Origin: a virus
DNA length: 30,279 bases
Reading direction: 5' to 3' (one strand)
IMG/VR virus record: IMGVR_UViG_3300010396_000085
Location: 1 to 30,279 of that record
Part shown: positions 6,080-27,221 of the stretch, one piece after another
Position numbering within the stretch: the stretch's first letter is position 1
How the letters are laid out: each line of letters opens with the position of its first letter
Notes under the pieces: model-generated
Told to the model about the DNA's origin: nothing
The model's input: the letters and a program-made list of their open reading frames with translations, nothing else
Database searches by the model: none
Translations under genes and position numbers: made by a program

Positions 6080-6786
6080 TAATAATCACGATATAGAATT
6101 AAGAATCGGGTTCCTTTTATGACAGGTACGGATATGGTTATGTCTGTCCCGTCGAACACATACTGCGTTGTATCGGGATTGTTGCTCACTGGCGCCAGGA
6201 TCGAATTGTCCCGCGTCAGGAGCAGAATTTTTTTATCATCAAGTGCGTCTACGGTAATCGTCGTCCCTTCAGACCCGATGGCGATATACTCTATGTCGTT
6301 GACGATTTTCATGGTCGTATCTGTTGGCTTGAAATCGGTGAACGAGGTCGGTACCTGACATATGTTCTGCGCGAATGGCGTGCGAATGGTGAAATCAATG
6401 TAGACGCCGGCAAACTGGTCATTTTCGGTTTCCACAAATAATTGGACCTGCATTTCCGAACTAAGTGCCCAATCATTGAAAGCTGGATAATTGATCTGCG
6501 CCATTAGGTCCATCATGACCAGAAGCATATCGGATTGTATGTCCAGCTCGTTTGCTTTCGTGTCCTCGCTGACATGCACTAAGTCTGCCAGATAAAGCCG
6601 GTAATTCAGCGTAAGCACCTTACCTGCCGTGCTTAATGAACCGCCGGTGAACTGCAGCAATGCCGAAGGATAAAGAGTAAACTTATCCGTCAGCCAATCA
6701 GTTGCGAGACCCTGGTAAAAGTTTCGCAGTTGCCTGTGATCCAGCGCCAGCGTTTTGATTCTTCGTATGACCTGGTTTAACGTCAT
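6079..6786 (-). CDS. Phage structural protein with C-terminal beta domain shared with the gene at 16399
   Basis: 235 residues. The N-terminus ([20 protein letters not shown]) and the central part form a compact domain that I recognise from Bacteroidetes phages as an unnamed structural family placed next to connector and fibre genes. Residues 166-235 form a second, beta-rich domain ('GSEGTTITV' ... '[11 protein letters not shown]' ... 'FLILYRDY') that aligns without gaps to residues 52-120 of the 120-residue protein at 16399-16761, with about 41% identity counted by eye. The gene lies between the connector-like gene and the fibres, and its TAA overlaps the fibre ATG, so a role in the neck, tail terminator or fibre attachment is plausible. 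The exact role is unknown. Confidence 0.75.
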
Positions 6787-6849
6787 TCTGTTTGGCGAGG
6801 TAAACCCTCATTTTTTCTTCGTTCTTTTTGCTGATGTTTTTGCACATGG

Positions 6850-7443
6850 TTACGGTTTGTATGGTTGCCCGTTGAAGCCGCCCGGATTGCAATATGGATT
6901 GTCCCGCCTGTCGCTGTCGCCCAGATAAACCGGCATGGTAAATGCCCGCTGCTGCGGCGTTATCGTGTCGATGGTGCTACCCGGGTTGAGGTATTCAGGA
7001 AAATAATCCGGCGCATTTTGTACGATCCACAGCCGCATCCGCTGGCCGTAATGCTCGGCTCTGCTCTTGTACTTTGCCGCGATACTCAGCAATTCGGTCA
7101 TCGTCGGCAATTCCGTATTCTCTCCCTGCTTTCTTACAACCCCTTTATTCCAGAACTGGTAGGATAGCGTTTCAGGGAGTTCCGAAAGGGTGTAATAGAT
7201 CAGTGCGTCAACGAGATAGTCATCAATCAAATTCTTGTAATGGATGTTTTCGGCATCCATTATTGACCCGTCACCTATCAAGGATTTCAGTTTGTTATCC
7301 AGCGCCGTACCAAGCAGTGGAGTGATATACACGTCCTGCGCGTACTTGATGTCGGGATAGATCAGCTTCGGATCGATATTGCCGTGAATGGCTGTCCGCT
7401 CCTTGATCATGGTATCGCTGATCAGTAGAATATTTTGGCTCAT
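6850..7443 (-). CDS. Head-tail connector-like protein (DUF6712-type)
   Basis: 197 residues from the ATG at 7443, which overlaps the portal stop (ATGA) and is preceded at six bases by AGGAGG. A longer frame reaching 7533 would run into portal coding sequence and is not needed. The start 'MSQNILLISDTMIKERTAIH' and 'GNIDPKLIYPDIKYAQD' are characteristic of a Bacteroidetes phage family I associate with DUF6712, which by size (~200 residues), helical make-up and position after the portal resembles gp6-like head-completion adaptors. The C-terminus is Pro/Gly/Asn-rich. The family match is from memory; the adaptor role is inferred from position. Confidence 0.75.
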   Translation of the reverse strand: MSQNILLISDTMIKERTAIHGNIDPKLIYPDIKYAQDVYITPLLGTALDNKLKSLIGDGSIMDAENIHYKNLIDDYLVDALIYYTLSELPETLSYQFWNKGVVRKQGENTELPTMTELLSIAAKYKSRAEHYGQRMRLWIVQNAPDYFPEYLNPGSTIDTITPQQRAFTMPVYLGDSDRRDNPYCNPGGFNGQPYKP

Positions 7444-9560
7444 TGGTCGCCTCCTTTTTTTACGACCACATGCGAAACCCAACGGTGCCGACATTCCGGA
7501 TTTTTTCCCCACCACCCGCCTTTCCGGTCCCACACACTATACCCTAACCGCGTGCTGATCTTTTCAATATCGGATCGGGAGTAGATGCGGTTAAGGGCGA
7601 TCATGCGCCGGCAGAAGGGTCGCGAGCCCGGAATAATAGTCGGCCCAACACCTGGCTTCACCTCGTAGCTATATTTCACAAAGACCGTCGCCGGGTTGAG
7701 CGATCCCTCCCTCGGCGGAGGCGCTAAGATGTCGGTGTCCGATACCGTATGCTCAATGACCATGTCGTCACCTTCTACCTCCGTGCTTTCTTCCAAGTAT
7801 CCCCTGGTAACGAGGTCCTGTATCTTATTCTCCACATAAGACAGGGATTGCCCAATTGTGTCAGCGATCACCTGGGCCGTAATACGTTTATCTTTCCGGA
7901 TGAGCTCGATGATCCGGTCCTCTGTGATTGTGACGTCGTAATCCGCGAATGTTTGAATGAACTTCGCCTCGTCATCTTTGGCTTCGGCGTCGGTCGAGAA
8001 AATAACCTTCTTGGTGCGCAGGATGTCGAAGTCGTCCTTGCAATCACCGTAGGCATCGAACAGCCCGATAATGCCATCCTCGTCATAGACGGCAGACATA
8101 GCGCCGGGCGCCGATGAGGTGATTCCCAAGATGTGATCGATATCGGTGTCGGCCAAACCAAGACCTGTACGCAGGAGTGTCCGCGCCTGCATTTCCGATA
8201 ACTGACCTTTCCCGTATTGGCGAATGATCCGGAGCAACTGCTGGTGTTGCTTGGTGGACAGGTTCTTGATGTTTTCGTTGACCGCTGCATCTACAGATGG
8301 AATGCCAGGAGAATCCACTTTGGTAGACGGCGCAATGGGTGTGGTGGGTGTCGGCCGGTTGTCGGCACCGATATTCTCCAGGTTCCACATTTCTTTGGGA
8401 ATACCAAGCTTTTCAAAGACAAAGGCCTTGGGCAGTGAGTTGATGACGTCTTTGACGTCGAATTGAACACCGATAGGGTCTAGCGGCCGCAAGGTATATT
8501 CGCCCGGCCATTGACTGAACGGTATGAGCTTCGCGATCTGCCGGTCGAACGCATGCGACTTCGGCTTGCCATACGTGCTTTGGAAGATCGAATATGCGGT
8601 ATAGAGCTCGGTATTTCCGCCCAGCTGCCCTTCCGTCTTGATGCCGAAAAGCATAGGGCTCGTGACCTTGTGGCCGCTGAATATCTCCTGCTGGCAGATT
8701 TGATTGACCTGCGCGAAGAGTTTATCCAGCTCCGTAGCCGACAGATCCTCTACGTCCACGGACTTGTCCTTAGTCTTATTGAAGACCATGATGAACCGGC
8801 CGGCGTTCTCGGCGCCCGTGAATTTCTGGGCCATCCGCCGCTCCATTTCCCTCTTCTTATCCTCGGAAGGTTCGCCGTCGTAGAACTGGAGCATTTTCGA
8901 CGGCATCATCCCGTTGCGAATTGCGCTGAGATTGAACTTGCTGATCTCGATATCGGTCTCGATGTAGTTGTTGCTGCCAATGTATTCAGGAAGCGGATAG
9001 AACCGGACCATCGGCCGGTATTCCCGGTAGGCGAATATCTGGGTCGTAAAAGGCTTCGACGGGTCAAAGTTCGGGATAAACTCTTCCTGCTCTTTGGATT
9101 TCAGGTCGCGGACATTCCATGTCTCTTTCCAGTAGTAGCCATCGCCTTTTTTTGACCGCCGCAGGGTTGAAAAATCGACGTGATAAAATTCACATATGCG
9201 TCCGATCCGGTCGTAAACGACCTCAAGATAAAATCCGCCATACGTCTCGATATCCAGCAGGCTCATGCTGGATACATCGTTCAGTGTTTCCTCGAGGCGG
9301 TTGCAGACAAAGTCTCCATTCTCATAGCCTTCGCCGAAGATGTATTTGGTCTTGCCGGTGACGATGGCGTTGTGCTTGCCCGACTTGTCGAAAAGGTAGG
9401 TCAGGTATTCGGGGTACATATTATCCTCCCCGTAACGGATATAGTCCTTGCCGCGCACTTCCTTGAAGACGGGTATCTTGCTATCCGCAAACTTCATAAC
9501 GAGGACGTCGGGTCCTGAAACATCGGCAGTCACGGGTGATATAGCAACGGCATTATCCAT
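7440..9560 (-). CDS. Portal protein with C-terminal winged-helix and MuF-like modules
   Basis: 706 residues, longer than a usual siphovirus portal (~400-500). Residues 1 to ~400 look like a PBSX/SPP1-type portal: 'YIRYGEDNMYPEYL', 'TYGGFYLEVVYDRIGRI', 'FYPLPEYIG', 'HKVTSPMLFGIKTEGQLGG'. After a Pro/Thr-rich linker (~415-430) come a helical region (~440-545), a winged-helix-like segment at ~545-595 (ELIRKDKRITAQVIADTIGQ), and a C-terminal module (~635-702) with 'SRPFCRRMIALNRIYSR', 'GYSVWDRKGGWWG' and CRHRW. The last resembles the C-terminal part of MuF-type minor head proteins fused to portals in Bacteroidetes phages; C650, C690 and H692 may bind metal. It would form the dodecameric DNA entry ring at the capsid vertex. 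It overlaps the upstream gene by 8 bases. Confidence 0.85.
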   Translation of the reverse strand: MDNAVAISPVTADVSGPDVLVMKFADSKIPVFKEVRGKDYIRYGEDNMYPEYLTYLFDKSGKHNAIVTGKTKYIFGEGYENGDFVCNRLEETLNDVSSMSLLDIETYGGFYLEVVYDRIGRICEFYHVDFSTLRRSKKGDGYYWKETWNVRDLKSKEQEEFIPNFDPSKPFTTQIFAYREYRPMVRFYPLPEYIGSNNYIETDIEISKFNLSAIRNGMMPSKMLQFYDGEPSEDKKREMERRMAQKFTGAENAGRFIMVFNKTKDKSVDVEDLSATELDKLFAQVNQICQQEIFSGHKVTSPMLFGIKTEGQLGGNTELYTAYSIFQSTYGKPKSHAFDRQIAKLIPFSQWPGEYTLRPLDPIGVQFDVKDVINSLPKAFVFEKLGIPKEMWNLENIGADNRPTPTTPIAPSTKVDSPGIPSVDAAVNENIKNLSTKQHQQLLRIIRQYGKGQLSEMQARTLLRTGLGLADTDIDHILGITSSAPGAMSAVYDEDGIIGLFDAYGDCKDDFDILRTKKVIFSTDAEAKDDEAKFIQTFADYDVTITEDRIIELIRKDKRITAQVIADTIGQSLSYVENKIQDLVTRGYLEESTEVEGDDMVIEHTVSDTDILAPPPREGSLNPATVFVKYSYEVKPGVGPTIIPGSRPFCRRMIALNRIYSRSDIEKISTRLGYSVWDRKGGWWGKNPECRHRWVSHVVVKKGGDQ
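7450..7455 (-). promoter_or_regulatory. Strong Shine-Dalgarno AGGAGG deciding the connector start
   Basis: On the minus strand AAAAAAGGAGG lies six bases upstream of the ATG at 7443. Most genes here lack such a site, so it stands out and supports the short form of the connector-like protein. Confidence 0.7.
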
Positions 9561-9939
9561 TATACGTCTTGAAACTGGCTGTGGAATCGTAAGGGGTGTA
9601 CGCGAAATCAGTGGACCGGTCGAGGATCATCTTGCCGGATTCGATCAATCCATTAGTCTGCGCCGGATCGGTGTTTTCGGCATACTCCTGATCAAAGACC
9701 TGATAATGCCATTCGCCTGGCTGCTTGCCCGCGAAAAGCGTGGCAGGGTCGATCGTGAATTCATTGTAGCGGTCCGGGTAATCGCTCTGGTCGTCGGTGT
9801 TCAGTTTGGCGAAAGAAACCACATCTCTGGTTAGGACGTGTGTGAAAACGAATAGATAATTGGGCTCTGGGATTGTAACCAGTTCCGATAGCGTGAGGAT
9901 AATAGCAACGGCCGCGTCATTTTGCTTGAATCTAAGCAT
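9553..9939 (-). CDS. Bacteroidetes phage structural protein (unnamed family)
   Basis: 128 residues from ATG 9939; a TTG three bases upstream is a poorer choice. The pattern 'AIILTLSELVTIPEPNYLFV', then 'SDYPDRYNEFTID', then 'PGEWHYQVFDQE' is one I know from small proteins in Bacteroidetes phage structural operons, predicted all-beta and of unknown role. It is the first gene after the terminator at 9973-10002 and overlaps the portal start by 8 bases, so it may be translated together with the portal. It carries a leader (ACACTAACGG) nearly identical to that of the gene at 20136-20759. A head- or tail-decoration or adaptor role is possible. Confidence 0.7.
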   Translation of the reverse strand: MLRFKQNDAAVAIILTLSELVTIPEPNYLFVFTHVLTRDVVSFAKLNTDDQSDYPDRYNEFTIDPATLFAGKQPGEWHYQVFDQEYAENTDPAQTNGLIESGKMILDRSTDFAYTPYDSTASFKTYNG

Positions 9940-9942
9940 CAA

Positions 9943-9952
9943 CCGTTAGTGT
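9943..9952 (-). promoter_or_regulatory. Shared leader motif ACACTAACGG before a structural gene start
   Basis: The minus strand reads CCTTTTTGACACTAACGG then TTGATG. The same stretch, with one inserted C and one A-to-T change, precedes the gene starting at 20759. Related forms precede the genes at 12437 and 13087. It may be a translation or processing signal. Confidence 0.45.
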
Positions 9953-9972
9953 CAAAAAGGCGTTTCTGTTTC

Positions 9973-10002
9973 AAAAAAATCCTCCCGTTGCCAGGAGGAT
10001 TT
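9973..10002 (-). terminator. Rho-independent terminator after the tail-tube-like gene
   Basis: On the minus strand a 9-bp perfect stem (AAATCCTCC / GGAGGATTT) with an 8-base loop (TGGCAACG) is followed by a T run. It lies 25 bases after the stop of the gene at 10028-10555 and before the portal-side genes, so it would separate strongly expressed capsid and tube genes from downstream genes. Confidence 0.85.
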
Positions 10003-10027
10003 CAAACAACTAAAAACAAATAGGAGG

Positions 10028-10555
10028 TTATGCGCCGGGCGTCTGCAGGGTGGCGATGATAGCGGGATCAATAAAGGGTGCGAGCTCCGGTTCGGCGCCG
10101 GTGAAGTTCAGTGTATAGCCGTTCCGGTCTCCCCAGGCCGTGCCGGTGGCGGCGGTGCCGGTCTGAAGCATGAGCCCATAGAGGCGTCCGTACAGGCGGT
10201 AGCTGTCATTGTTGTCGTGGGCGATCACAATGAGCTTATTCTTCGACAACAGCAATATTTCATTACGCACGGCCACCTGCTGCTTGTTGAGGATGATCGT
10301 CCCGGCTTGGGTGTAGAACAGGGTTCCATTCTGCCGGTTGCCGGTGATCGTCTCTTCGAAGTTGGCCGTTTCGAGAACAAGTTGGTACTTACGAAAAACT
10401 TTGCCCGTGAGCTTGGTGATCGTCGTAATCGTTCCGCTGCTCTCTACCAGTTCGCCAACGTTCTCCAGCTCGATGAGCCAGCACTCTTTGGTGCCGCCAG
10501 TGCCAACGTCGCAGCCGAAATTATAATCCTGGGTGAGGGCACAACTGGTGCTCAT
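10028..10555 (-). CDS. Putative major tail (tube) protein
   Basis: 175 residues, beta-rich, with 'DYNFGCDVGTGGTKECWLIE' near the start, 'VFRKYQLVLETANFEETITG' and 'RLYGLMLQTGTAATG' in the middle, and a small C-terminal strand region. The Cys and Gly-rich N-terminal pattern is one I associate with Bacteroidetes phage structural genes. Position right after the major capsid gene, the size, and a terminator just downstream fit an abundant virion protein such as the tail tube. A head decoration or stopper protein is the alternative. Confidence 0.6.
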   Translation of the reverse strand: MSTSCALTQDYNFGCDVGTGGTKECWLIELENVGELVESSGTITTITKLTGKVFRKYQLVLETANFEETITGNRQNGTLFYTQAGTIILNKQQVAVRNEILLLSKNKLIVIAHDNNDSYRLYGRLYGLMLQTGTAATGTAWGDRNGYTLNFTGAEPELAPFIDPAIIATLQTPGA

Positions 10556-10595
10556 GGTAGCAAAATATTAAAGGGAGGCTGTGACCCCCGGGTGA

Positions 10596-11552
10596 TTAAA
10601 CGAGTTTGAAGGAAACCACTTCGTTCGGGAACGCCACCTGCACGCCGTATTTAAATGCGGCCTTGAAGCGCAGGTAGTCCTTGAACTGGTCAGGGATCAG
10701 GTCGAAGTCTTCCTCTTCGTTCTCCAGGTCCGTTCCGCCGTACAGGTTGCTCATTCGGGCCGTGAACAGGCGTTTGGTTTGATCCAGTCCGTGAACGGCG
10801 GTGAGCTTGTAGTTGGTGCCGGGGATGATCACCTCGCCATTCTCCATCTTTACTTCGGAGCCAGTAGGCGCGAAGTTGAACAGGTTCTGATCCCTGTAGG
10901 CAGCGATGAAGACCGAGAAGACGTCCCAGCCGCAAAAGACGCGGATATCGTCCTGACCGAGCACATCGGCAGGAAGGTCCTGCCACATGCCATCTACGAT
11001 ACCTTTGATATTCGCCGAGGTGATGCCGGTTGCAACGGTTATCGCCGTGGGGTTGCCGTTGACGGAAGCAGCAGCCGTATCCAGCAGTTTAATGAAACCG
11101 TCGAACCGGGAAAGGTTGGCGTTTCCGCTAGTGGTGTCGCCCTGCCAGATGGCGACCTCCAATTGCTTGGCTATCGTCTTGGTCTTTAGCTCCGTATAGT
11201 CCTGTTCGAAAGGAATCTCGTTTTCCTGGCTGCCTTTTGCAAGGACCTTGCTCAGATATTTGGACCGCAGGTCCTTGACGCAAAGGTCTTCTACGACGGC
11301 AATGTTGCCCACGGTGATCTTGCGCTGGGTGATCCTGGTGGTACCCGAAGAGGTCCGGGTACATCCCGCGCCGTCCTGGAAGATGGCGTCGGTATCCAGC
11401 TGGTTGATCTGTTCGGCGAACTTAATGCCCGTCATGACCGTGCCTTCACTGCGGAGCAGATCGGAGGTGCGGGCACCGAAGATTGATTTGGTGACGAGCA
11501 CATCCGTGTTCTCGATCACATAGTTCACTAAAGTACTAACATCAAAAGGCAT
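10596..11552 (-). CDS. Major capsid protein (HK97-fold type)
   Basis: 318 residues, the usual size for an HK97-fold capsid protein without a long delta domain. Features: an N-terminal arm with 'TLVNYVIENTDVLVTKSIFG'; 'CTRTSSGTTRITQRKITVGN', typical of the E-loop/P-domain start in this group; 'LEVAIWQGDT' (the 'WxGD' element common in Bacteroidetes capsid proteins); an A-domain segment 'VFCGWDVFSVFIAAYRDQN'; and 'RLFTARMSNLYGGTDLENEE' toward the C-terminus. It follows the protease and scaffold-like genes as expected. It assembles into the procapsid shell around the portal. The family call is by pattern, not by search. Confidence 0.85.
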   Translation of the reverse strand: MPFDVSTLVNYVIENTDVLVTKSIFGARTSDLLRSEGTVMTGIKFAEQINQLDTDAIFQDGAGCTRTSSGTTRITQRKITVGNIAVVEDLCVKDLRSKYLSKVLAKGSQENEIPFEQDYTELKTKTIAKQLEVAIWQGDTTSGNANLSRFDGFIKLLDTAAASVNGNPTAITVATGITSANIKGIVDGMWQDLPADVLGQDDIRVFCGWDVFSVFIAAYRDQNLFNFAPTGSEVKMENGEVIIPGTNYKLTAVHGLDQTKRLFTARMSNLYGGTDLENEEEDFDLIPDQFKDYLRFKAAFKYGVQVAFPNEVVSFKLV

Positions 11553-12439: not shown

Positions 12440-12449
12440 CCGTTAGTGT
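12440..12449 (-). promoter_or_regulatory. Shared leader motif ACACTAACGG before the scaffold-like gene
   Basis: The minus strand reads TTAACACTAACGGGCATG; the motif partly overlaps the stop codon of the protease gene and matches the ten-base core found before 9939. Confidence 0.4.
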
Positions 12450-13087
12450 TAATCGGTGAAGGATGTTTCGTTTAAGATTTTGCGGATGCTCTGCCGCTGT
12501 TCTGGCGTGCAGGTTTCATTCAGCTTTTCAAAAAAGGTGATGACCGGGTGCTGACTGAACTTGACCGGGACATAATTAAATATCCCTTCGACGGAAAAGC
12601 CTTTGATCTGCCCGTCCTTCACCCGCGCCCATACATCGGGGTTGTTCACCTGCGCGGAGATGAACCAGCTACCTTCGGCCAGATCCTCAAACCCGGTTGG
12701 TGGACGAATGCCCATGGAGGCATCGATGAGGAAAGAATTGAAGATGGTAACATTGTTGACCTGCTGCTGATCGTCATGGAACAGGTTGAACTTCTGCATG
12801 AAGCCTTTGGCGGCAAACTTTTTGACGATGGTGGAGATGGCTCCTGCGTCGAAGACCACGTAGTACTCGCCAAGCTGCTGATCATTTCGGTACAGCGGCA
12901 TGTCGGCGATCATGGCGGGCCCCGAAATGATCTGACGCGCTTCGTCAAGGACGAATTTGGCGACATGCGCTTTGAATGCCTGGAAGTTCCGCTCAATGGC
13001 GGGCCGGTCGACGAGACCAATAAAACTGACCTCCAGGTCTGAATTAAGCTCGGGATCGATCTGCGCGCGGTATAGCTGAAGCTCCAT
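12449..13087 (-). CDS. XkdF-type phage maturation protease
   Basis: 212 residues. Motifs: 'EVSFIGLVDRPAIERNFQAF' at the N-terminus, 'QIISGPAMIADMPLYR' (~53-68), the 'YYVVFD' strand, 'VNNVTIFNSFLIDASMG', and 'GSWFISAQVNNPDVWARVKD' with 'GQIKGFSVEGIF' (~142-170). These are the marks of XkdF-like putative phage serine proteases, which in head modules process scaffold and capsid subunits. The last residues are helical. It is the first gene of the head group on the minus strand and is divergent from the lipoprotein gene across a 74-base gap, so a late promoter may lie in that gap. Confidence 0.85.
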   Translation of the reverse strand: MELQLYRAQIDPELNSDLEVSFIGLVDRPAIERNFQAFKAHVAKFVLDEARQIISGPAMIADMPLYRNDQQLGEYYVVFDAGAISTIVKKFAAKGFMQKFNLFHDDQQQVNNVTIFNSFLIDASMGIRPPTGFEDLAEGSWFISAQVNNPDVWARVKDGQIKGFSVEGIFNYVPVKFSQHPVITFFEKLNETCTPEQRQSIRKILNETSFTD

Positions 13088-20947: not shown

Positions 20948-22168
20948 TTACCAAATCGAATACTCTCCCTGTGCGGCTTCCGTGGCGAGATTCTTTCGAG
21001 CCAAGGCCAGGGAATATACAGCATCGTCGGTCATGCCGTCGGGAACGGAATAGCGTACACCGGTGCGGGTGTATTCAAACTCGAAGGCCTCGAGCTCATC
21101 CTGTAGCACGCCGGCGATAGCGGTCACCTTTCGGTTCTGGAGATCGTAAGCCAACCCCTCGACCATTTGCTGCTTGGACCGCTCCGTGAAGATCACGACG
21201 TCGAGATCGCGGTGCCGGCCAATATCCTCGGCGATGGGGTCACCCACGCCCGTGCCATCGATGGTGATCTTACCCGACGGCAATGATAAGATGGTTTCTT
21301 TTGTCTGCTTCCAATCCTTTTGAAACCGGTCCCAGTGGCATATCTGACCGAACTTATCCAGGCCGGTGATTACCGTCCAATCGCGTTTTTTCGCCAGGTC
21401 GATACCAAAGCAGACCGGCGGCAGACTACTGAGCCCAAAAATGGCCCGGCGGATGTGATCAAACCCAAATGGGTTGCTGCCGTCTTCCGAAGCCTCGGCG
21501 AGGTAGAGCTCATTGAAGACGTTCTCCGGCAGATCACGTTTGGCATCTTCAATCTCCTCGATGAATGGTCGGCCGTCCTTGGTTTTCATGCCAGCAGCGG
21601 CCGCGTCGTATGCTGTGATCTTGAAGTAGGCGTAATCCTTGTCCTGTCCATTCTTCGCCCGCATGCCCAACTTATGGCCCCAGTTTTTTCGACCCTTGAC
21701 GTTGCCGATGAATTTACATTTACCGCCGGTCGCTGTCAGCGTGGATCGTAGCGCATGCCATGCCTCTTCCCGGGCGCGGGTGAATTCGTCGAAGACGGCG
21801 GCGTAAACGTCGTCGCCGTACAGGTTGTCGGGCTTTTCGGCGGACTTGAAAGCAAAGATAGCGCCGGATGGATAGGTCGCCGTTAGCTTGCTCTCGTTGA
21901 AGCGGAGAAAGCCTTTGTCGCTCAACTGCGTTCGCAGGCGACGGAACATGATCTCAGCCTGGCCATAGACGGGCGCGATCCACCACACGGATTGCCCTTC
22001 TTTCAGATCCATGGCGAGCGGTTGTTCGAAGAGCCAGATTAGGTGAGAGGCGGATTTGCCGACCTTCGTTGCGGCTTCGGTGACCGTGAAGCGGGCCGGC
22101 GAGTCGATGATCGCCCGCTGGTAAGGATAGACAAATGGGCGTGTATAGTTGATCACCGGCTCTCCCAT
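20948..22168 (-). CDS. terL: Terminase large subunit
   Basis: 406 residues, on the short side for TerL. The ATPase domain (~1-215) has a degenerate Walker A 'TKVGKSAS' (~34-41, TKVGKS in place of GxxxxGKT), Walker B 'AAVFDEF' (~123-129; D127, E128), and a coupling motif near 'KFIGNVKG'. The C-terminal nuclease domain shows three acidic positions expected of an RNase H fold: D257 in 'GIDLAKK', D304 in 'ITIDGTGVGD', and D381/D382 in 'DGMTDDAVYSLALA'. It packages DNA into the procapsid and cuts the concatemer. It overlaps the upstream fusion gene by 16 bases, so it is in the same operon as the glycan genes. Confidence 0.93.
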   Translation of the reverse strand: MGEPVINYTRPFVYPYQRAIIDSPARFTVTEAATKVGKSASHLIWLFEQPLAMDLKEGQSVWWIAPVYGQAEIMFRRLRTQLSDKGFLRFNESKLTATYPSGAIFAFKSAEKPDNLYGDDVYAAVFDEFTRAREEAWHALRSTLTATGGKCKFIGNVKGRKNWGHKLGMRAKNGQDKDYAYFKITAYDAAAAGMKTKDGRPFIEEIEDAKRDLPENVFNELYLAEASEDGSNPFGFDHIRRAIFGLSSLPPVCFGIDLAKKRDWTVITGLDKFGQICHWDRFQKDWKQTKETILSLPSGKITIDGTGVGDPIAEDIGRHRDLDVVIFTERSKQQMVEGLAYDLQNRKVTAIAGVLQDELEAFEFEYTRTGVRYSVPDGMTDDAVYSLALARKNLATEAAQGEYSIW

Positions 22169-23427
22169 TGCCTGAGCTTTTGTACGACTTGTTCCGGTGT
22201 GATGCTTGGGATATTGCCCTCAAAGACAATAGCGTCAGGGTTCTTGCCCCAAGGGCCCTGGTTGCAGAATAGGAAGTTGCGGACGCCGAGAGCATGGGCA
22301 AGATGGCTCGTGCCGGTGACGACGGAGATAAGGCCATAACGCGCCTCCTTTAGTAGATTTGACACGCAGGTAAAGTGGTGGCCAAATAATGATGTTGTCG
22401 CATTCGGTATATAGTCGTGGTCGTCATTATCGCCCCCAATGACGGCAAATTGCCTTGAAGGCATCAGATCAACGAGCTGGCGCCAATACTCTTTGGGCCA
22501 GCGTTCGTTTTCCGGCAATGATCTACTGAACGGAGAAAGGATATAATCAAAATAGGGCTGGGCGATGCGACGAACCACAAATGAAGGCCGCACAGGCTTG
22601 GGTGGGATAGGCAAGCCAACGGCGTGGAAGTTCGCCTGTGTCATATGTAGATTGTCCTTTGCCGCCAGTTTAAAGGCGGCATGAAGATCGAAGGCAAGGT
22701 CGCCGCGCTCATCGGGCGTCCATTGATGCCGTCGCCATTCGGCGTGAGGCTTTAGCCCTGCCATGCTCAATAATTCGAACATCGACACACCGCAATGAAC
22801 CTCCATCGGTGCGCCTTTGGCAAGCTCTTGCATGGCCGGTATCGTCCCGATAAAATCCCCGATCAGGTCATTGTCGTTCCGGACCACCAACGGACGCTGC
22901 CATATCGCCGCCTGAAACTTTGCCCGCGTCGGACTCCACAATTTTCCACTTTCTTCCAGCGCCTTGCGGACGCCCGGGCAATTGGGCCAATCGAAATCGT
23001 CGAAGACCATAACGCCGCCGGGCATCATCCGCGGTACGAACCATTCGATACAGGCCTTGACCGACAGGTAGAAGTCTGTATCAACATGGACGAAGGAGAA
23101 GCGTGTATCATCGCCGATCGCCCATACGCTTTCTGGGAACAGACCTTTGATAAGTTCGACGCGCGGATTGTTGATGAATCTAGCGACGGACTCCACATGC
23201 GTGTCTGCGAATTCGCCGGGCTTGTGAATCTCTATCTCGCTATGGTATGCCGCCGGCAGTCCTTCGAAAGTGTCAAACCCGTATAGTCGCCGATCTGGGA
23301 ACGCGTCGGCGAGATATTTTAATGAACCGCCCTTGTAGACGCCGATCTCAGCAATAGGGCCACGTGGACACAGCTTCGCTATTCGGATCAGTTCATCGAG
23401 GCGATCTTTTGTAATGAGTGTGTTCAT
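22153..23427 (-). CDS. TylF-type methyltransferase fused to GT9-like glycosyltransferase
   Basis: 424 residues. N-terminal part (~1-178): class I SAM methyltransferase of TylF/macrocin O-methyltransferase type, with 'IAEIGVYKGGSLKYL' (SAM loop), 'GFDTFEGLP', 'FVHVDTDFYLSV' (metal and substrate side) and 'VFDDFDWPNCPGVRKAL'. C-terminal part (~179-424): GT9/heptosyltransferase-like, with N-lobe 'RNDNDLIGDFIGTIPAMQEL' and C-lobe 'SVVTGTSHLAHALGVRNFLF' (the pattern 'sxDTGxxHlAaALG'). The two domains suggest one protein that adds a sugar and O-methylates a glycan. It is coupled to the previous gene by ATGA. The target (phage virion or host surface glycan) is not shown by the sequence. Confidence 0.8.
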   Translation of the reverse strand: MNTLITKDRLDELIRIAKLCPRGPIAEIGVYKGGSLKYLADAFPDRRLYGFDTFEGLPAAYHSEIEIHKPGEFADTHVESVARFINNPRVELIKGLFPESVWAIGDDTRFSFVHVDTDFYLSVKACIEWFVPRMMPGGVMVFDDFDWPNCPGVRKALEESGKLWSPTRAKFQAAIWQRPLVVRNDNDLIGDFIGTIPAMQELAKGAPMEVHCGVSMFELLSMAGLKPHAEWRRHQWTPDERGDLAFDLHAAFKLAAKDNLHMTQANFHAVGLPIPPKPVRPSFVVRRIAQPYFDYILSPFSRSLPENERWPKEYWRQLVDLMPSRQFAVIGGDNDDHDYIPNATTSLFGHHFTCVSNLLKEARYGLISVVTGTSHLAHALGVRNFLFCNQGPWGKNPDAIVFEGNIPSITPEQVVQKLRQWESR

Positions 23428-23879
23428 CGGCGGCGGTGGTGTTTGTGCGATGGAAAGTTTGCTTTGGTCTGGATAGGCGGTTGCTCTGCCTCGTCCTTAG
23501 ATTCCGGCTCAGGCAGATCGTCACCGGTCGTCTGTTCGGCAGCCTGTATCGAGTGGTCTATTAGCTCGTTTGCTTTCGCTTCGCTCCCCTCGATTAGCTT
23601 TGCCGCCGCTTTCTCTATCTCAGCTAAACGGGTGACTGTCTCCAACCGCTTTTCCTCTTCCAGGAACTGATCATAGCGACGATATACCTGCAGGATCATA
23701 TTGGATACGCACGGCGGACACCACAGGTCGGCCGTATAGCCTGGCTGGAACTCCTCACTCATCGCCTTGACCAGGTTCGAACGATCCAGTCCGGATAGAT
23801 GTTTGAGGTAACCGGCTTTGACGAGCGTGTCGTGGTGCTTTCGGTTGTCTTCGAAGATTTGTCTATTCTCGGGCTTCAT
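23424..23879 (-). CDS. Hypothetical phage protein with CPPC motif
   Basis: 151 residues. The first half is helical with 'QPGYTADLWCPPCVSNMILQ' (~46-65), a CxxC-type element found in small phage proteins near terminase genes, possibly metal binding. A coiled-coil segment follows (~70-110, 'FLEEEKRLETVTRLAEIEKA'), and the tail is acidic then basic with a final HKHHRRR. The start is one base after the TGA of the upstream gene; the end overlaps the methyltransferase start. No function is known to me. Confidence 0.7.
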   Translation of the reverse strand: MKPENRQIFEDNRKHHDTLVKAGYLKHLSGLDRSNLVKAMSEEFQPGYTADLWCPPCVSNMILQVYRRYDQFLEEEKRLETVTRLAEIEKAAAKLIEGSEAKANELIDHSIQAAEQTTGDDLPEPESKDEAEQPPIQTKANFPSHKHHRRR

Positions 23880-23880
23880 A

Positions 23881-24198
23881 TCATTCGGTTATATAAATAG
23901 GTGACGGCCGATCGAAATATTTTAATTCATCATCCTTGATGGTATAGTCATTTTTGGCAATCGCCGGCGGCCTTTCAGGACACTCGAGCACATACATTGC
24001 CTGACATCCCATGATCGACATCGCTCCAACAATTAAATACCAGTTTGCGTGGGCTCGGTTCGGAATAAAACCGAGCATCTTGCCGGCATCATTGACGGAA
24101 TTCAAAGTTCCCCACACGGCGCGATATTGAATGCCGTCCGGCCCATAGAACCAATTCTGCGTAGTAACCAAGACTTTTTTACCGACAAGAGACAGCAT
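23881..24198 (-). CDS. Conserved phage protein of unknown function ('QNWFYGPDG' family)
   Basis: 105 residues from ATG 24198, which lies inside the end of the glycosyltransferase gene (20-base overlap). A longer frame to 24321 is mostly in shadow of that gene. The start 'MLSLVGKKVLVTTQNWFYGP' with 'DGIQYRAVWGTLNSV' and 'GFIPNRAHANWYLIVGAMSI' is a pattern I know from Bacteroidetes phage packaging regions. Residues ~45-75 are moderately hydrophobic. One Cys each in 'MGCQAM' and 'LECPER'. A function cannot be inferred. Confidence 0.7.
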   Translation of the reverse strand: MLSLVGKKVLVTTQNWFYGPDGIQYRAVWGTLNSVNDAGKMLGFIPNRAHANWYLIVGAMSIMGCQAMYVLECPERPPAIAKNDYTIKDDELKYFDRPSPIYITE

Positions 24199-25183
24199 AT
24201 TCAAATATTTGTTTCCGCTTATCATTGATCCGCGAAAAGTTATAATGCTCGTTACAGAACTCGGCGAGCTCCTGCCCTGCTTCGCGGCGCCGCTTCTTGC
24301 TCTTGACCAGCCGCGTGACATGCTTGATCCAATCCGAGCCTGATTTACAATATAGCAACGGCATGTTGAGATAGGGGTCGACCTGGCTTGCGATCGCCGG
24401 TAATCCCATATTAGCGGCCTCCAGGACCTTCAGATTGCTCTTATAACTATTGAACCGCGATTTGACTAGGGGCACCAGACAGATGTCTGCTTCCTGATAG
24501 GGAGCGTAGTATTGCAGCACCCCGGCGCCGGGGATAATCTTGTACTGGTGGTGGAAGCCAGAGGTATACATCTTCGCCATGCGTTGCCACGCTGGCTCTT
24601 CCTCGACAAAGCCGGCCATGATCATTTTGATCTTCCCGGCGATCGTCCGAAGTCCGGCGATAGGCCGGCAAAGCACACCGACGTCATTCTCGTGGGTTAC
24701 CGATCCCTGCCAGAATACACGCACCAGGTTGGACGGGATCGTCTCAACGTCAAACTGGCCGGTTCGGGCAATGGCGTTGGGCAATATCTCCACATTTGGG
24801 TTGATACCTTTGGCGGCATCGGCAAGCCTGCCATGGGTGACAAAAACGGTATCCGCGGCCCGAATGTTCTTTACCTGCCTTTGGGTGTGGCCGGCGTCGT
24901 CGTATTCCTGGAACAGAATATGGTGGGGATCCAGTTCCCAATAATCATCAATGTCGCAGACGGTCCGGAATCCGTATTTCTCCTTCAGCGCAGGCAGTTG
25001 GTCGAATAACGCATCGGGCAGCCACCGATTCCAAATGAAGATATCTACGCCTTTGTCGAAGCCGTTCTCTCCCAATGGATCATTGGTGAGGCAGACGTCG
25101 ACATCCGGCATCGTATATAGAGGCACCGTGATCCGGTGATAGGTCGGGCCGGAATGGGCTGCTATAAAGGCGACGATTCTCAC
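24179..25183 (-). CDS. GT4-like glycosyltransferase
   Basis: 334 residues from a GTG at 25183 that overlaps the TGA of the upstream membrane gene (GTGA). A longer frame to 25372 contains antisense-like sequence inside that gene and is not credible, while 'RIVAFIAAHSGPTYHRI' is a proper first beta strand of a GT-B fold. Further marks: 'VCDIDDYWEL' (~75-84), 'VEILPNAI' in the interdomain region, 'VFWQGSVTHENDVGVL' at the start of the C-lobe, and 'KSNLKVLEAANMGLPAIAS' (~275-293), the EX7E-like donor-sugar region of GT4. It transfers a nucleotide-activated sugar. With the methyltransferase/GT9 fusion it forms a glycan-modification cassette within packaging genes. Confidence 0.85.
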   Translation of the reverse strand: MRIVAFIAAHSGPTYHRITVPLYTMPDVDVCLTNDPLGENGFDKGVDIFIWNRWLPDALFDQLPALKEKYGFRTVCDIDDYWELDPHHILFQEYDDAGHTQRQVKNIRAADTVFVTHGRLADAAKGINPNVEILPNAIARTGQFDVETIPSNLVRVFWQGSVTHENDVGVLCRPIAGLRTIAGKIKMIMAGFVEEEPAWQRMAKMYTSGFHHQYKIIPGAGVLQYYAPYQEADICLVPLVKSRFNSYKSNLKVLEAANMGLPAIASQVDPYLNMPLLYCKSGSDWIKHVTRLVKSKKRRREAGQELAEFCNEHYNFSRINDKRKQIFEYAVSCR

Positions 25184-25404
25184 AGATAGCGCATTTGAAT
25201 GGCCGAATAAATTGCCCCGATAAATACAGCAACTGGGCAGAGGATGATCCCATGCCATCCTTGTTGCCAGACACCTAGGCCCAAGGCGAACCAACCCGCC
25301 ATACAGCGCACGCAGGTGAACGGTTTGACAACGCCCAATTTCAGCACCTCGACCCAGCAGAAGCCGAGGCACAGCGCATAGAACACTATCTCGATACTTG
25401 ACAT
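25180..25404 (-). CDS. Small membrane protein with CxxC motif
   Basis: 74 residues: an N-terminal hydrophobic helix (~4-22, IVFYALCLGFCWVEVLKLG), then 'KPFTCVRCMAGWFALGLGVW' with CxxC at C30/C33, then another hydrophobic stretch (~50-66). This architecture, two helices around a CxxCxxGW element, occurs in small phage and prophage membrane proteins (DUF1360-like proteins show a similar CxxC arrangement). It overlaps the sigma-like gene by 19 bases and the glycosyltransferase by GTGA, so it is part of the glycan cassette; it could hold the enzyme at the membrane. Confidence 0.7.
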   Translation of the reverse strand: MSSIEIVFYALCLGFCWVEVLKLGVVKPFTCVRCMAGWFALGLGVWQQGWHGIILCPVAVFIGAIYSAIQMRYL

Positions 25405-25940
25405 CGAATATGTTTTAAAGATTTTTGAATGGATTTGTATGCAGATTCCCAGGGGATGCCGGTTGCCGCTTCGATTGCCCGGTAGTTGCCGTGTTGGATG
25501 TAAAGTCTTACAAGCTCCTGATCATACCAGTATAGGTTTTCGATCTCCGCCAGAGCTTTGTCTTCGCGCAGTTCGCGGATCTCACGGGCCTGGATGTCGT
25601 CGACATGAACGGCAATTCCGCTTGTTACCTTCGCCGGCTGCCATTCTTCGTCTTCGAGAAATGCATTACCGCCATCATCGTATTCGCTGACCATGGCGCG
25701 GTACTTCTTATAGAAGGGCGAATACTTATTGATCACCATGTGCAGCATGACCTTCGCTACGTAAAAGCCCAGCTTGCCGCGGGTATATAGGTCTATTACC
25801 TTTTCGTCCGTCCAGGTACAGACCTCGACCATGACCTCCATCTTCAAGTCTTCCCGGAGATGAGCCGGCTCCATCTTCTCAATGGCATCCCGGAAGTTTC
25901 TACCGGTGAACAGGTCGTGGATGATCTGGTCTCGCGTCAT
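25386..25940 (-). CDS. Sigma-factor-like / HTH protein
   Basis: 184 residues. The N-terminal half is helical and resembles region 2 of ECF-like factors ('EDLKMEVMVEVCTWTDEKVI', 'LYTRGKLGFYVAKVMLHMVI'); the middle is an acidic linker. The C-terminal ~55 residues ('LVRLYIQHGNYRAIEAATGI' then 'PWESAYKSIQKSLKHIR') look like sigma region 4: a first helix, 'YRxIExATGIPxxSAYKSI' as helix-turn-helix, and a basic end. It overlaps the small terminase gene by ATGA. It may direct host polymerase to late promoters or act as a DNA-binding partner in packaging. The stop is TAG. Confidence 0.7.
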   Translation of the reverse strand: MTRDQIIHDLFTGRNFRDAIEKMEPAHLREDLKMEVMVEVCTWTDEKVIDLYTRGKLGFYVAKVMLHMVINKYSPFYKKYRAMVSEYDDGGNAFLEDEEWQPAKVTSGIAVHVDDIQAREIRELREDKALAEIENLYWYDQELVRLYIQHGNYRAIEAATGIPWESAYKSIQKSLKHIRCQVSR

Positions 25941-26521
25941 CCGAGATTGAGGGTTATGGAGTAGGATTGCTTGTTGCCTTTGGCGTCTTCGCCTTCGACC
26001 TTGGCTTTCACGGTCGCCGATCCGGTCCAGCCCATCAGTTTGCCAATCTCACTTACGGCTGTGATCCGGGGATCACCCTTGATCTTGCGATTGGTGCCAA
26101 GCCTGCCATCCGCAGTCTTCACCTCGATCACCTCAATGGAAGCGATCGCCCGGGCCGTGTCTTCATCCAGCTCGGACAACTTCTTCATCGTCCCGTCTTC
26201 GTTAAAGATTTTTCGAACATCCAGGTCGGCGATCTGTTTCAATCGACCCAATGCCCACTCACGGCTAATACCGAGCTTTCTGGCGACCTCTTCGGTCTGC
26301 TCTGCCTGTACCCTTGCTCGCACCTCTTCGTCGGCGGCAACCCGGGCCGCAACGATCGTACGGGCTACCCTTATCCACTTCTCAACTGCGGATACGCTTA
26401 GCCCGTACTCATCCGTAAATTTCCGGATGATTTCTTTCGGTTTTGCGCCTGCATATAGCATGTCTGCGCAAATAACCACACCCTTCTCCTTACTTATTGT
26501 CTTTTTACCACCCAAGACCAT
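25937..26521 (-). CDS. terS: Terminase small subunit
   Basis: 194 residues. The N-terminal region is a DNA-binding helix-turn-helix ('KPKEIIRKFTDEYGLSVSAV' then 'EKWIRVARTIVA', ~28-59), followed by a charged coiled coil with Arg/Ala/Glu repeats (~60-95). 'DVRKIFNEDGTMKKLSEL', 'DEDTARAIASIEVIEV' and 'GTNRKIKGDPRITAVSEIGK' are marks of the terminase_2/P27-like small subunit family. It recognises the packaging site and regulates TerL. It is the first gene of the packaging operon; the 65 bases upstream hold a dyad (26567-26586). Confidence 0.9.
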   Translation of the reverse strand: MVLGGKKTISKEKGVVICADMLYAGAKPKEIIRKFTDEYGLSVSAVEKWIRVARTIVAARVAADEEVRARVQAEQTEEVARKLGISREWALGRLKQIADLDVRKIFNEDGTMKKLSELDEDTARAIASIEVIEVKTADGRLGTNRKIKGDPRITAVSEIGKLMGWTGSATVKAKVEGEDAKGNKQSYSITLNLG

Positions 26522-26566
26522 TCGATTTTAGCACTTCGAATGTACGTCCTCGCAAAAGCGTTCCAC

Positions 26567-26586
26567 GTGAATCTAGATAAATTCAC
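26567..26586. promoter_or_regulatory. 20-bp dyad between the regulator gene and the terminase small subunit
   Basis: GTGAAT-N8-ATTCAC, perfect 6-bp arms in a 20-base unit, close to the size of a LuxR-type binding box. It overlaps the last base of the LuxR-like gene and lies ~45 bases before the terS start, where an operator would be. No T run follows, so it is a poor terminator. Confidence 0.4.
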
Positions 26587-26810
26587 TATGCTATTTTTCC
26601 GAAACGCATGTATGTGGCAACCGCTTCGATGGTATTGGCGACGCGCATCTTTCGGATAATATGGCTGCGATGATTGCTCACGGTGCTGGTGCTGATGCCG
26701 TATTTGTCGGCGATCTGCTTTGAGCTAAGGCCGTTGGCAAGGTCTTGGAGCACCTCTTGTTCCCTGGTCGATAGCTTACGGCCTCGGGGCTTGTCCGGGA
26801 TATTGTTCAT
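26586..26810 (-). CDS. Stand-alone LuxR/GerE-type HTH regulator
   Basis: 74 residues, essentially one GerE domain: 'LSTREQEVLQDLANGLSSKQ' then 'IADKYGISTSTVSNHRSHII' and 'RKMRVANTIEAVATYMRFGK', which shows the standard T-x-RE-xEVL, (S/N)-K-(Q/E)-IA, and V-x-x-H-x-x-x-I-x-x-K elements. There is no receiver or autoinducer domain. It binds DNA, probably as a dimer, and could control the late operon beginning with terS just downstream. The start lies ~40 bases after the upstream stop; the end is TAG TGA (double stop). Confidence 0.85.
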   Translation of the reverse strand: MNNIPDKPRGRKLSTREQEVLQDLANGLSSKQIADKYGISTSTVSNHRSHIIRKMRVANTIEAVATYMRFGKIA

Positions 26811-26850
26811 TCAGCAATTAGTTTTCAGGATTTTGGGCCGGATCACTGGA

Positions 26851-27096
26851 TTATTTGTGTTGGCTCTCCCACTCCCCCGCCTCTTCCCTGGTATCGAAAT
26901 AGCGGAGGAGATCGCCTTCGCAGGTGTAGGCGACTTCCAGATCGTGGAGGTATTCCGCCTGCAGTTTATCGTCGATGACCAGGCCGTGCTCATAGACCGC
27001 TGCGCAGATCTCGCAGGGGCAAGTGGTCTTGTTCCGGAATACTCTCTTTCCTACGCGGTCGAGAAACCATTGGAGGCGGGTGTTCTGTGTGTTCAT
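26851..27096 (-). CDS. Conserved small phage protein with CPCxxC motif
   Basis: 81 residues. 'RLQWFLDRVGKRVFRNKTTC' followed by 'PCEICAAVYEHGLVIDDKLQ' and 'EYLHDLEVAYTCEGDLLRYF' matches a small family found in Bacteroidetes phages and prophages; the CPCxxC near residue 26 and a later Cys may bind zinc. The gene overlaps the 42-residue gene by ATGA. The C-terminus is charged ('DTREEAGEWESQHK'). Function unknown. Confidence 0.8.
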   Translation of the reverse strand: MNTQNTRLQWFLDRVGKRVFRNKTTCPCEICAAVYEHGLVIDDKLQAEYLHDLEVAYTCEGDLLRYFDTREEAGEWESQHK

Positions 27097-27221
27097 TTTT
27101 TCTTTTTTGGGGGCTTCTCTGGTTTACGGCGCTTAGGCTTCTTTCTCCACGGTTTTATTTGTGGCCGCTCCGATAACTTTTCGAAAAACCGTTCAGTAGT
27201 TTCGTTTTTTGCCTGTATCAT
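27093..27221 (-). CDS. Lysine-rich 42-residue protein
   Basis: A 129-base gene filling the gap between two others, with ATGA overlaps at both ends, which strongly supports it as real. The product starts MIQAKNETTERFFEKLSERP and ends in a Lys/Pro/Arg tract (KPKRRKPEKPPKKKK), so it is very basic. It could bind nucleic acid or the acidic surface of another protein. The first five residues (MIQAK) are the same as those of the gene at 27746-28135, as if the initiation regions were related. No family recognised. Confidence 0.75.
   Translation of the reverse strand: MIQAKNETTERFFEKLSERPQIKPWRKKPKRRKPEKPPKKKK

Follow-up and report, generated by a model that had tools for sequence, protein, structure and literature searches.

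A candidate virion-glycosylation cassette between the terminase genes of a viral genome fragment

The viral record IMGVR_UViG_3300010396_000085 carries, between the genes of the small (terS) and large (terL) terminase subunits, a glycosyltransferase (GT) gene of the GT4 type and a gene in which a methyltransferase (MT) is joined to a GT9-like domain. What would glycan-modifying enzymes do in the midst of the packaging genes of a phage? The window analysed is the record in its full length of 30,279 bases and, set beside a sister phage of 46,963 bases, proves to be a fragment. In silico analysis points to two glycosyltransferases with complete predicted GT-B folds and a predicted sugar O-methyltransferase, all encoded in one coupled terS–terL run. 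The cassette is read here as the late-operon virion-glycosylation set of a Bacteroidota tailed phage, a reading with about an even chance of being correct.

Organization of the terS–terL region

Eight genes lead from terS to terL on the minus strand (26521 to 20948), successively terS, p184, the gene of a membrane-type protein of 74 amino acids (aa), GT4, p105, p151, the MT–GT9 fusion and terL. Each junction is formed by an overlap of 4-20 nucleotides (nt) or by a 1-nt gap. The overlaps amount to 4 nt for terS/p184, 19 nt for p184 and the 74-aa gene, 4 nt (GTGA) for the latter and GT4, 20 nt for GT4/p105 and 4 nt (ATGA) for p151/fusion, while p105 and p151 are separated by the single-nucleotide gap. 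The fusion overlaps terL by 4 nt if terL starts at GTG 22156 and by 16 nt if it starts at ATG 22168. An earlier note on this DNA, made from its letters alone, had placed the cassette in a translationally coupled run with terS and terL, and the arrangement of all junctions bears this out. Consensus promoters and terminators were not in excess anywhere in the terS–terL stretch, in a scan that excludes Bacteroidota promoters; we infer late expression from gene position only.

The flanking terminase genes were assigned by Pfam Terminase_2 (2.8e-6) and PHROG 51 (1.1e-5) for terS (25937–26521, minus strand, 194 aa) and by PHROG 2 (5.2e-24) for terL (20948–22168, minus strand, counted from the upstream start). 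Genes for a prohead protease, a probable capsid protein and a portal protein lie farther along the same strand.

Predicted enzymes encoded by the cassette

The GT4 gene (24179–25183, minus strand) has a GTG start at 25183 and a stop at 24179, and encodes a GT4-type (GT-B) enzyme of 334 aa. The protein matches PHROG 7162, annotated as glycosyltransferase (E 3e-50), and Pfam Glyco_trans_1_4 (PF13692, 9e-7), the cut-off of which is passed by its C-lobe (29.7 vs 27 bits). Its predicted model, with a predicted local distance difference test score (pLDDT) of 90, is most similar in the PDB to GT-B enzymes of the sucrose-phosphate synthase (SPS)/BshA type (Z 25-28). A GT1-type Pfam C-lobe is combined with a GT-B fold across the full length, and PHROG 7162, PF13692 and the model agree on the GT4-like enzyme proposed earlier.

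The second coding sequence (22153–23427) is one open frame of 424 aa, in which a TylF/MycF-type sugar O-methyltransferase precedes a GT9-like domain. The first domain (residues 1-170; 22918–23427, minus strand) is recognised by Pfam TylF (PF05711) at residues 3-160, with 49.8 bits against a cut-off of 23 (E 3.6e-13), and the N-terminal part also by Methyltransf_24 (4.7e-12). In the PDB, sequence similarity links it to SpnH (9e-8), CalS11, MycF and NovP, O-methyltransferases of antibiotic pathways whose substrates are sugars. The fusion was modelled with AlphaFold2 from a 16-row alignment (mean pLDDT 86.4, predicted template modelling score 0.70), and residues 1-178 of the model superimpose on MycF with Z 21.1 and a root-mean-square deviation (rmsd) of 1.9 over 153 residues. 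The acidic H-x-D-x-D ... DD pattern is preserved in every MT sequence aligned. This half has a class I methyltransferase fold nearest to those of sugar O-methyltransferases, and is a predicted sugar O-methyltransferase itself. It resembles TylF, MycF, NovP and CalS11 in fold (MycF) and in sequence (SpnH), but is shorter, at about 175 aa, and those enzymes act on antibiotic sugars.

The second domain (residues 179-424; 22153–22893, minus strand) is a shortened glycosyltransferase domain. Residues 178-424 of the model align with WaaF (Z 20.9, rmsd 2.9, 240 residues) from position 1 to 345 of the WaaF chain, and further structural matches are WaaC, 3tov and the heptosyltransferase TibC (Z 18.6). 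The list of structural matches is mostly made up of MT-domain rows, and the GT9 assignment rests on the WaaF, WaaC, 3tov and TibC rows. In the model both GT-B lobes are present, so that the domain is shortened but complete. Structure prediction of the 424-residue protein thus returned two domains, with a GT-B fold at residues 178-424, in line with the earlier description of an S-adenosylmethionine-dependent methyltransferase followed by the N-lobe and C-lobe of a GT9 enzyme (MycF Z 21.1, WaaF Z 20.9). The domain carries GDFxGTxP and GxSHL motifs and shares with WaaC/WaaF and TibC the complete GT-B fold and the motif types GDxxxTxP and TGxSHL. The Asp of the N-terminal GD motif, as aligned to WaaC, and the SHL residues are invariant in 11 sequences. 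Unlike WaaC/WaaF, of about 330 aa, the window domain has about 246 aa.

Recurrence of the cassette in other phages

When the fusion was compared with a phage collection (tblastn), matches covered the MT half only and were all mycobacteriophage proteins, including Che8 gp108 (E 3e-8). A plasmid search gave no match spanning most of the protein, the matches listed lying mainly in the MT half, and peptide patterns taken from the fused protein had zero matches in viral contigs. TerL was taken as the anchor for finding related loci (numbered below with the prefix L) in place of the fused protein, and 21 viral loci had TerL relatives at 56-66% identity. Only one close relative, L003, carries the whole set, in the order p184, 75-aa membrane protein, GT4 (42%), p151-like gene, MT (62%), GT9 (52%) and terL. 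Because L003 repeats the gene order of the window, the order of the cassette is considered beyond chance. Forks within the window clade of the TerL tree are unsettled, and the labels are too few for dating the gain of the cassette.

The slot in front of terL is filled differently in other relatives. Another GT9-like gene (assigned by eye) with a GT4 gene precedes terL in L009, L022 and others, and another MT with GT4 in L011 and L016, the latter also with an HNH-like gene. L004 has GT4, GT2, MT, a GIY-YIG-like gene and a GT_PLOD-MT gene, and no glycan gene is present in the slot of L002, L005, L018 and L021. Strong variation of this kind, from slots with nothing glycan-related to the mixed content of L004 and L016, would be expected if the slot were a tolerated insertion site and the cassette some other accessory cargo, acting on host proteins or small molecules or in counter-defence. 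We regard this as rather improbable, for the content is repeatedly glycosyltransferases and sugar-type methyltransferases, not a random sample of cargo, and the three enzymes are found together again next to a different terminase. In L004 (6395-9879) the terS–terL slot contains GT2, MT24, the GIY-YIG-like gene and the GT_PLOD-MT fusion, and this endonuclease-like gene may help slot content move.

The different terminase belongs to a prophage region in Flavihumibacter petaseus NBRC 106054 (L063), where terL precedes MT, a 112-aa gene, GT9 and GT4; L042 shares this terL type and gene order. GT9 and then GT4 follow portal/MuF-type genes in L065 and L071. In L044 and L046 the head-tail genes include an MT with a larger gene that is GT-like by appearance, although Pfam names neither of these two larger genes, and an MT precedes terS–terL in L050. 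A hand count of nine non-redundant phage loci of the GT9 type found an MT within about 2 kb in six and GT4 nearby in five. The same enzymes recur beside terminase or portal genes in Bacteroidota phages with unrelated terminases. A collagen-like protein with GXY repeats is encoded shortly upstream of the GT-like and MT pair of L046 (4416-5717), a proteobacterial-type phage, and is a possible glycan acceptor.

The sister phage, the same phage as L003, is represented by contig DHIR01000113.1 (L074-L076), which is filed as a Mucilaginibacter metagenome-assembled genome and is a complete, circularly permuted phage of 46,963 bases, identical to IMGVR_UViG_3300039210_000132 across the 21 kb compared. 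The link of this phage to Mucilaginibacter is suggestive only, because the contig has no bacterial flanks within its bin. The idea of L059 as an integrated prophage was rejected, since its contig is the L003 phage in circularly permuted form and has no bacterial flanks. GT9 relatives in cellular genome records belonged to Bacteroidota in five of five cases. In the Chitinophagaceae chromosomes L061 and L062 (about 5000-10900) the GT9 gene has methyltransferases nearby, and one of its neighbours in L062 is DUF4157-like (by eye). Four tandem genes, apparently paralogues with an SGFGFS...W...VGARL-like pattern, were noticed in the sister genome (reverse-complement 25188-27116).

Proposed role of the cassette

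According to the virion-glycosylation reading, the soluble enzymes would act in the cytoplasm late in infection, using host nucleotide sugars, and would place a short glycan on virion proteins of the capsid, tail or fibre. One glycosyltransferase would start the glycan and the other extend it, and the methyltransferase would cap a sugar hydroxyl with a methyl group. The MT–GT9 fusion of the window would tie capping to the addition of the GT9 sugar. Such a glycan might shield the particle or alter its interactions outside the cell. The reading is favoured by the GT and MT genes lying in association with virion or late genes, as the classes of the cassette do in L003, L042/L063, L065, L071, L044, L046 and L050, and by the similarity of the GT9-like half to TibC (Z 18.6), a heptosyltransferase of similar fold that glycosylates a protein. 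The scan of window genes recognised no enzyme of the flippase, polymerase or lipid-carrier kind. That the set builds and O-methylates a glycan, as the earlier note had suggested, is the natural interpretation, since the MT relatives SpnH, CalS11, MycF and NovP act on sugars. As to its target, for which capsid, tail and host surface had been named, virion proteins are the favoured candidates here.

The host surface is the main rival target, although an unlikely one. The GT9-like and GT4 enzymes would then act at the inner membrane on precursors of lipopolysaccharide (LPS) or capsule, the MT would methylate the added sugar, and the altered receptor would keep out superinfecting phage or prevent progeny from adsorbing again. 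LPS is indeed built by GT9 heptosyltransferases and by many GT4 enzymes, WaaF is the best structural match of the GT9-like half, and the chromosomal GT9 relatives in Chitinophagaceae have methyltransferases nearby. However, coupling to terL and a late position would be too late for lasting conversion, and several unrelated phages have the same enzyme classes next to their virion genes. Phage-encoded glycan-modifying genes of the gtrABC serotype-conversion type are integrase-linked, whereas the window cassette is terminase-linked and no gtrA/gtrB-like membrane protein, bactoprenol enzyme or other membrane glycan enzyme was recognised with it.

Several observations weigh against virion glycosylation. 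The probable major capsid protein (10596–11552, minus strand; PHROG 1623 virion structural, 7.7e-6; weak SU10_MCP), a candidate acceptor, is without a Ser/Thr-rich C-terminal extension, as is p175, and the capsid protein is not clearly different between phages with and without glycosyltransferases. No acceptor is named because the C-terminus of the probable capsid protein is not distinctive; the most Ser/Thr-rich proteins are p886, p539 and p383, which is suggestive only. The GT9-like half scores below the cut-off of Pfam GT9 (PF01075; 14.8 vs 22 bits, E 0.018, residues 303-383) and for this reason is named GT9-like and not filed as GT9; its relative in L065 passes (27.1 bits), and most members tested fall below the cut-off. 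The Asp of the WaaC DTGxSH motif is replaced by Val, so that the donor or the chemistry may differ from that of a heptosyltransferase. Finally, GT4 relatives of Klebsiella phage ZCKP1 are found beside primase/helicase genes and near the DNA polymerase, not beside virion genes. These GT4 homologues (L058, ZCKP1 87472-98365) belong to a run of four annotated glycosyltransferases.

The neighbourhood in ZCKP1 would fit a role in DNA hypermodification, in which the glycosyltransferases would glycosylate a modified base and the MT would decorate that sugar. That glycosyltransferases of phages can modify DNA, and do so with diverse glycans, is known according to PMC12619734 (referring to Pyle 2024). 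Against this role, Pfam recognises among 20 genes outside the main virion cluster of the complete sister genome an N6/N4 DNA methylase, but neither an enzyme of the thymidylate synthase/hydroxymethylase type nor any other that primes bases, although an unfamiliar enzyme could escape such a scan. The cassette, moreover, has packaging and virion genes as its neighbours and not replication genes. DNA modification is less likely than the virion and host-surface readings because no known base-priming enzyme is present among these scanned genes, and we consider it very unlikely.

The systems closest to the cassette, taken as a virion-glycosylation set, are those of the mycobacteriophages Corndog and Che8. 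In Corndog (cluster O) an O-methyltransferase (gp35), two glycosyltransferases (gp36 and gp37) and an N-acetylglucosamine-transferase (gp38) are encoded between portal and protease, and the authors propose capsid modification (PMC4351075). As in the window, these genes are part of the virion operon; they differ in lying between portal and protease and in being separate, and the likeness is one of gene content, not of sequence comparison. The capsid protein of Che8 is reported in PMC11256854 (citing Freeman 2023) to bear covalently attached glycans, and PMC12619734 locates mycobacteriophage glycans on capsid and tail-tube subunits, at their C-termini. The Che8/Llama type (GT2-MT gp108, gp109, gp110) shares with the window a GT-MT fusion beside further glycosyltransferases and a related Methyltransf_24/TylF domain (29% identity). 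In contrast to the window, its fusion has the order GT-MT, with GT2 instead of GT9, its other GT families are different, and the genes are located near the right genome end, not between terS and terL.

A wider proposal is more doubtful, namely that GT4, a GT9-like enzyme and a sugar O-methyltransferase constitute a transferable module, coupled to the terminase across unrelated Bacteroidota lineages and producing an O-methyl-capped glycan coat, with the window encoding one bifunctional MT–GT9 enzyme. Virion glycosylation has been demonstrated, among open-licence papers, for mycobacteriophages; if the cassette acts in this manner too, glycan-coated virions would extend to Bacteroidota phages, and the O-methyl cap together with a swappable, terminase-coupled slot would let related phages change their coat. 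The Flavihumibacter petaseus prophage region, with all three enzymes, offers a route of study through a cultured strain.

Origin of the MT–GT9 fusion

At the fusion junction (22887–22905, minus strand) the C-terminus of the MT meets the start of GT9, with one Pro codon between them. L003, which has the highest TerL score among the relatives and 65% TerL identity to the window, encodes MT and GT9 as two genes overlapping by ATGA, and the junction codon TTG of the window occupies the position of its ATG. Loss of 2 nt at a TGATG stop/start, biological or through assembly error, would yield the fusion of the window. The 424-aa protein, though not the cassette, may accordingly be an assembly artefact in which a 2-nt deletion joined two genes, a substantial possibility that we place somewhat below even and that is compatible with any functional reading. 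The position of the junction is exactly that expected for the stop/start, and a hypothetical CCGTGATGGTGG minus GA gives the observed CCGTTGGTGG.

Among loci with the related GT9 type, a fusion of the MT–GT9 order was seen only in the window. The related GT9 is a separate gene near an MT in L040, L042/L063, L043 and L068, has no MT nearby in L065 and L071, and is fused to a p151-like domain in L060. The MT/GT9 pair, for which a neighbourhood search had been proposed, does recur in Bacteroidota phages, but as separate genes, and the fusion could not be upheld as a standing architecture. On the other hand, the frame is open throughout, the motifs of both halves are intact, TTG is in frame at the junction, and a genuine microdeletion would give an identical picture. 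Natural fusions of GT with MT and of GT with other domains exist as well: those of opposite order in L004 (GT_PLOD and MT) and in mycobacteriophage Llama (gp108, GT2 and MT), both showing that GT-MT fusions as such already occur in phages, and that of L060 (227-1195), where a p151-like LWCxxCV domain is N-terminal to the GT9-like domain as a second natural fusion partner.

Remaining genes of the stretch

The earlier note had also listed, after GT4 and before the fusion, a small membrane protein, which was not confirmed; two small genes lie at this place. With hydropathy expressed as the best 19-residue mean and a membrane threshold of 1.6, p105 (23881–24198, minus strand; PHROG 22562, 5.6e-13) reaches 1.55 and is not clearly a membrane protein, and p151 (23424–23879, minus strand) reaches 0.60 and is a small soluble protein with an LWCxxCV motif. 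The membrane-type protein of the stretch is the 74-aa product with a KPFxCxxCxxxW motif (25180–25404, minus strand; hydropathy 2.09), encoded just upstream of GT4. It has homologues in L003 and L004, and a similar small protein is present in L002 and L009; the KPFxCxxCxxxW-type protein stays beside p184 even in L002, a relative without glycosyltransferases. The HTH-like p184 (25386–25940, minus strand; weak HTH_28) has homologues in the terS–terL interval of relatives, whether or not these carry glycosyltransferases (tblastn: 40-51% in L003/L004, 26% in L002).

The virion genes farther along the strand are those of the S78/XkdF-like prohead protease (12449–13087, minus strand; Pfam Peptidase_S78_2, 6.5e-10), the probable capsid protein and the portal protein (7440–9560, minus strand; PHROG 11226 portal, 5.6e-35). 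Immediately upstream of terS, a 74-aa LuxR/GerE-type helix-turn-helix protein is encoded at 26586-26810 (Pfam GerE 3e-20), possibly a regulator of the late operon.

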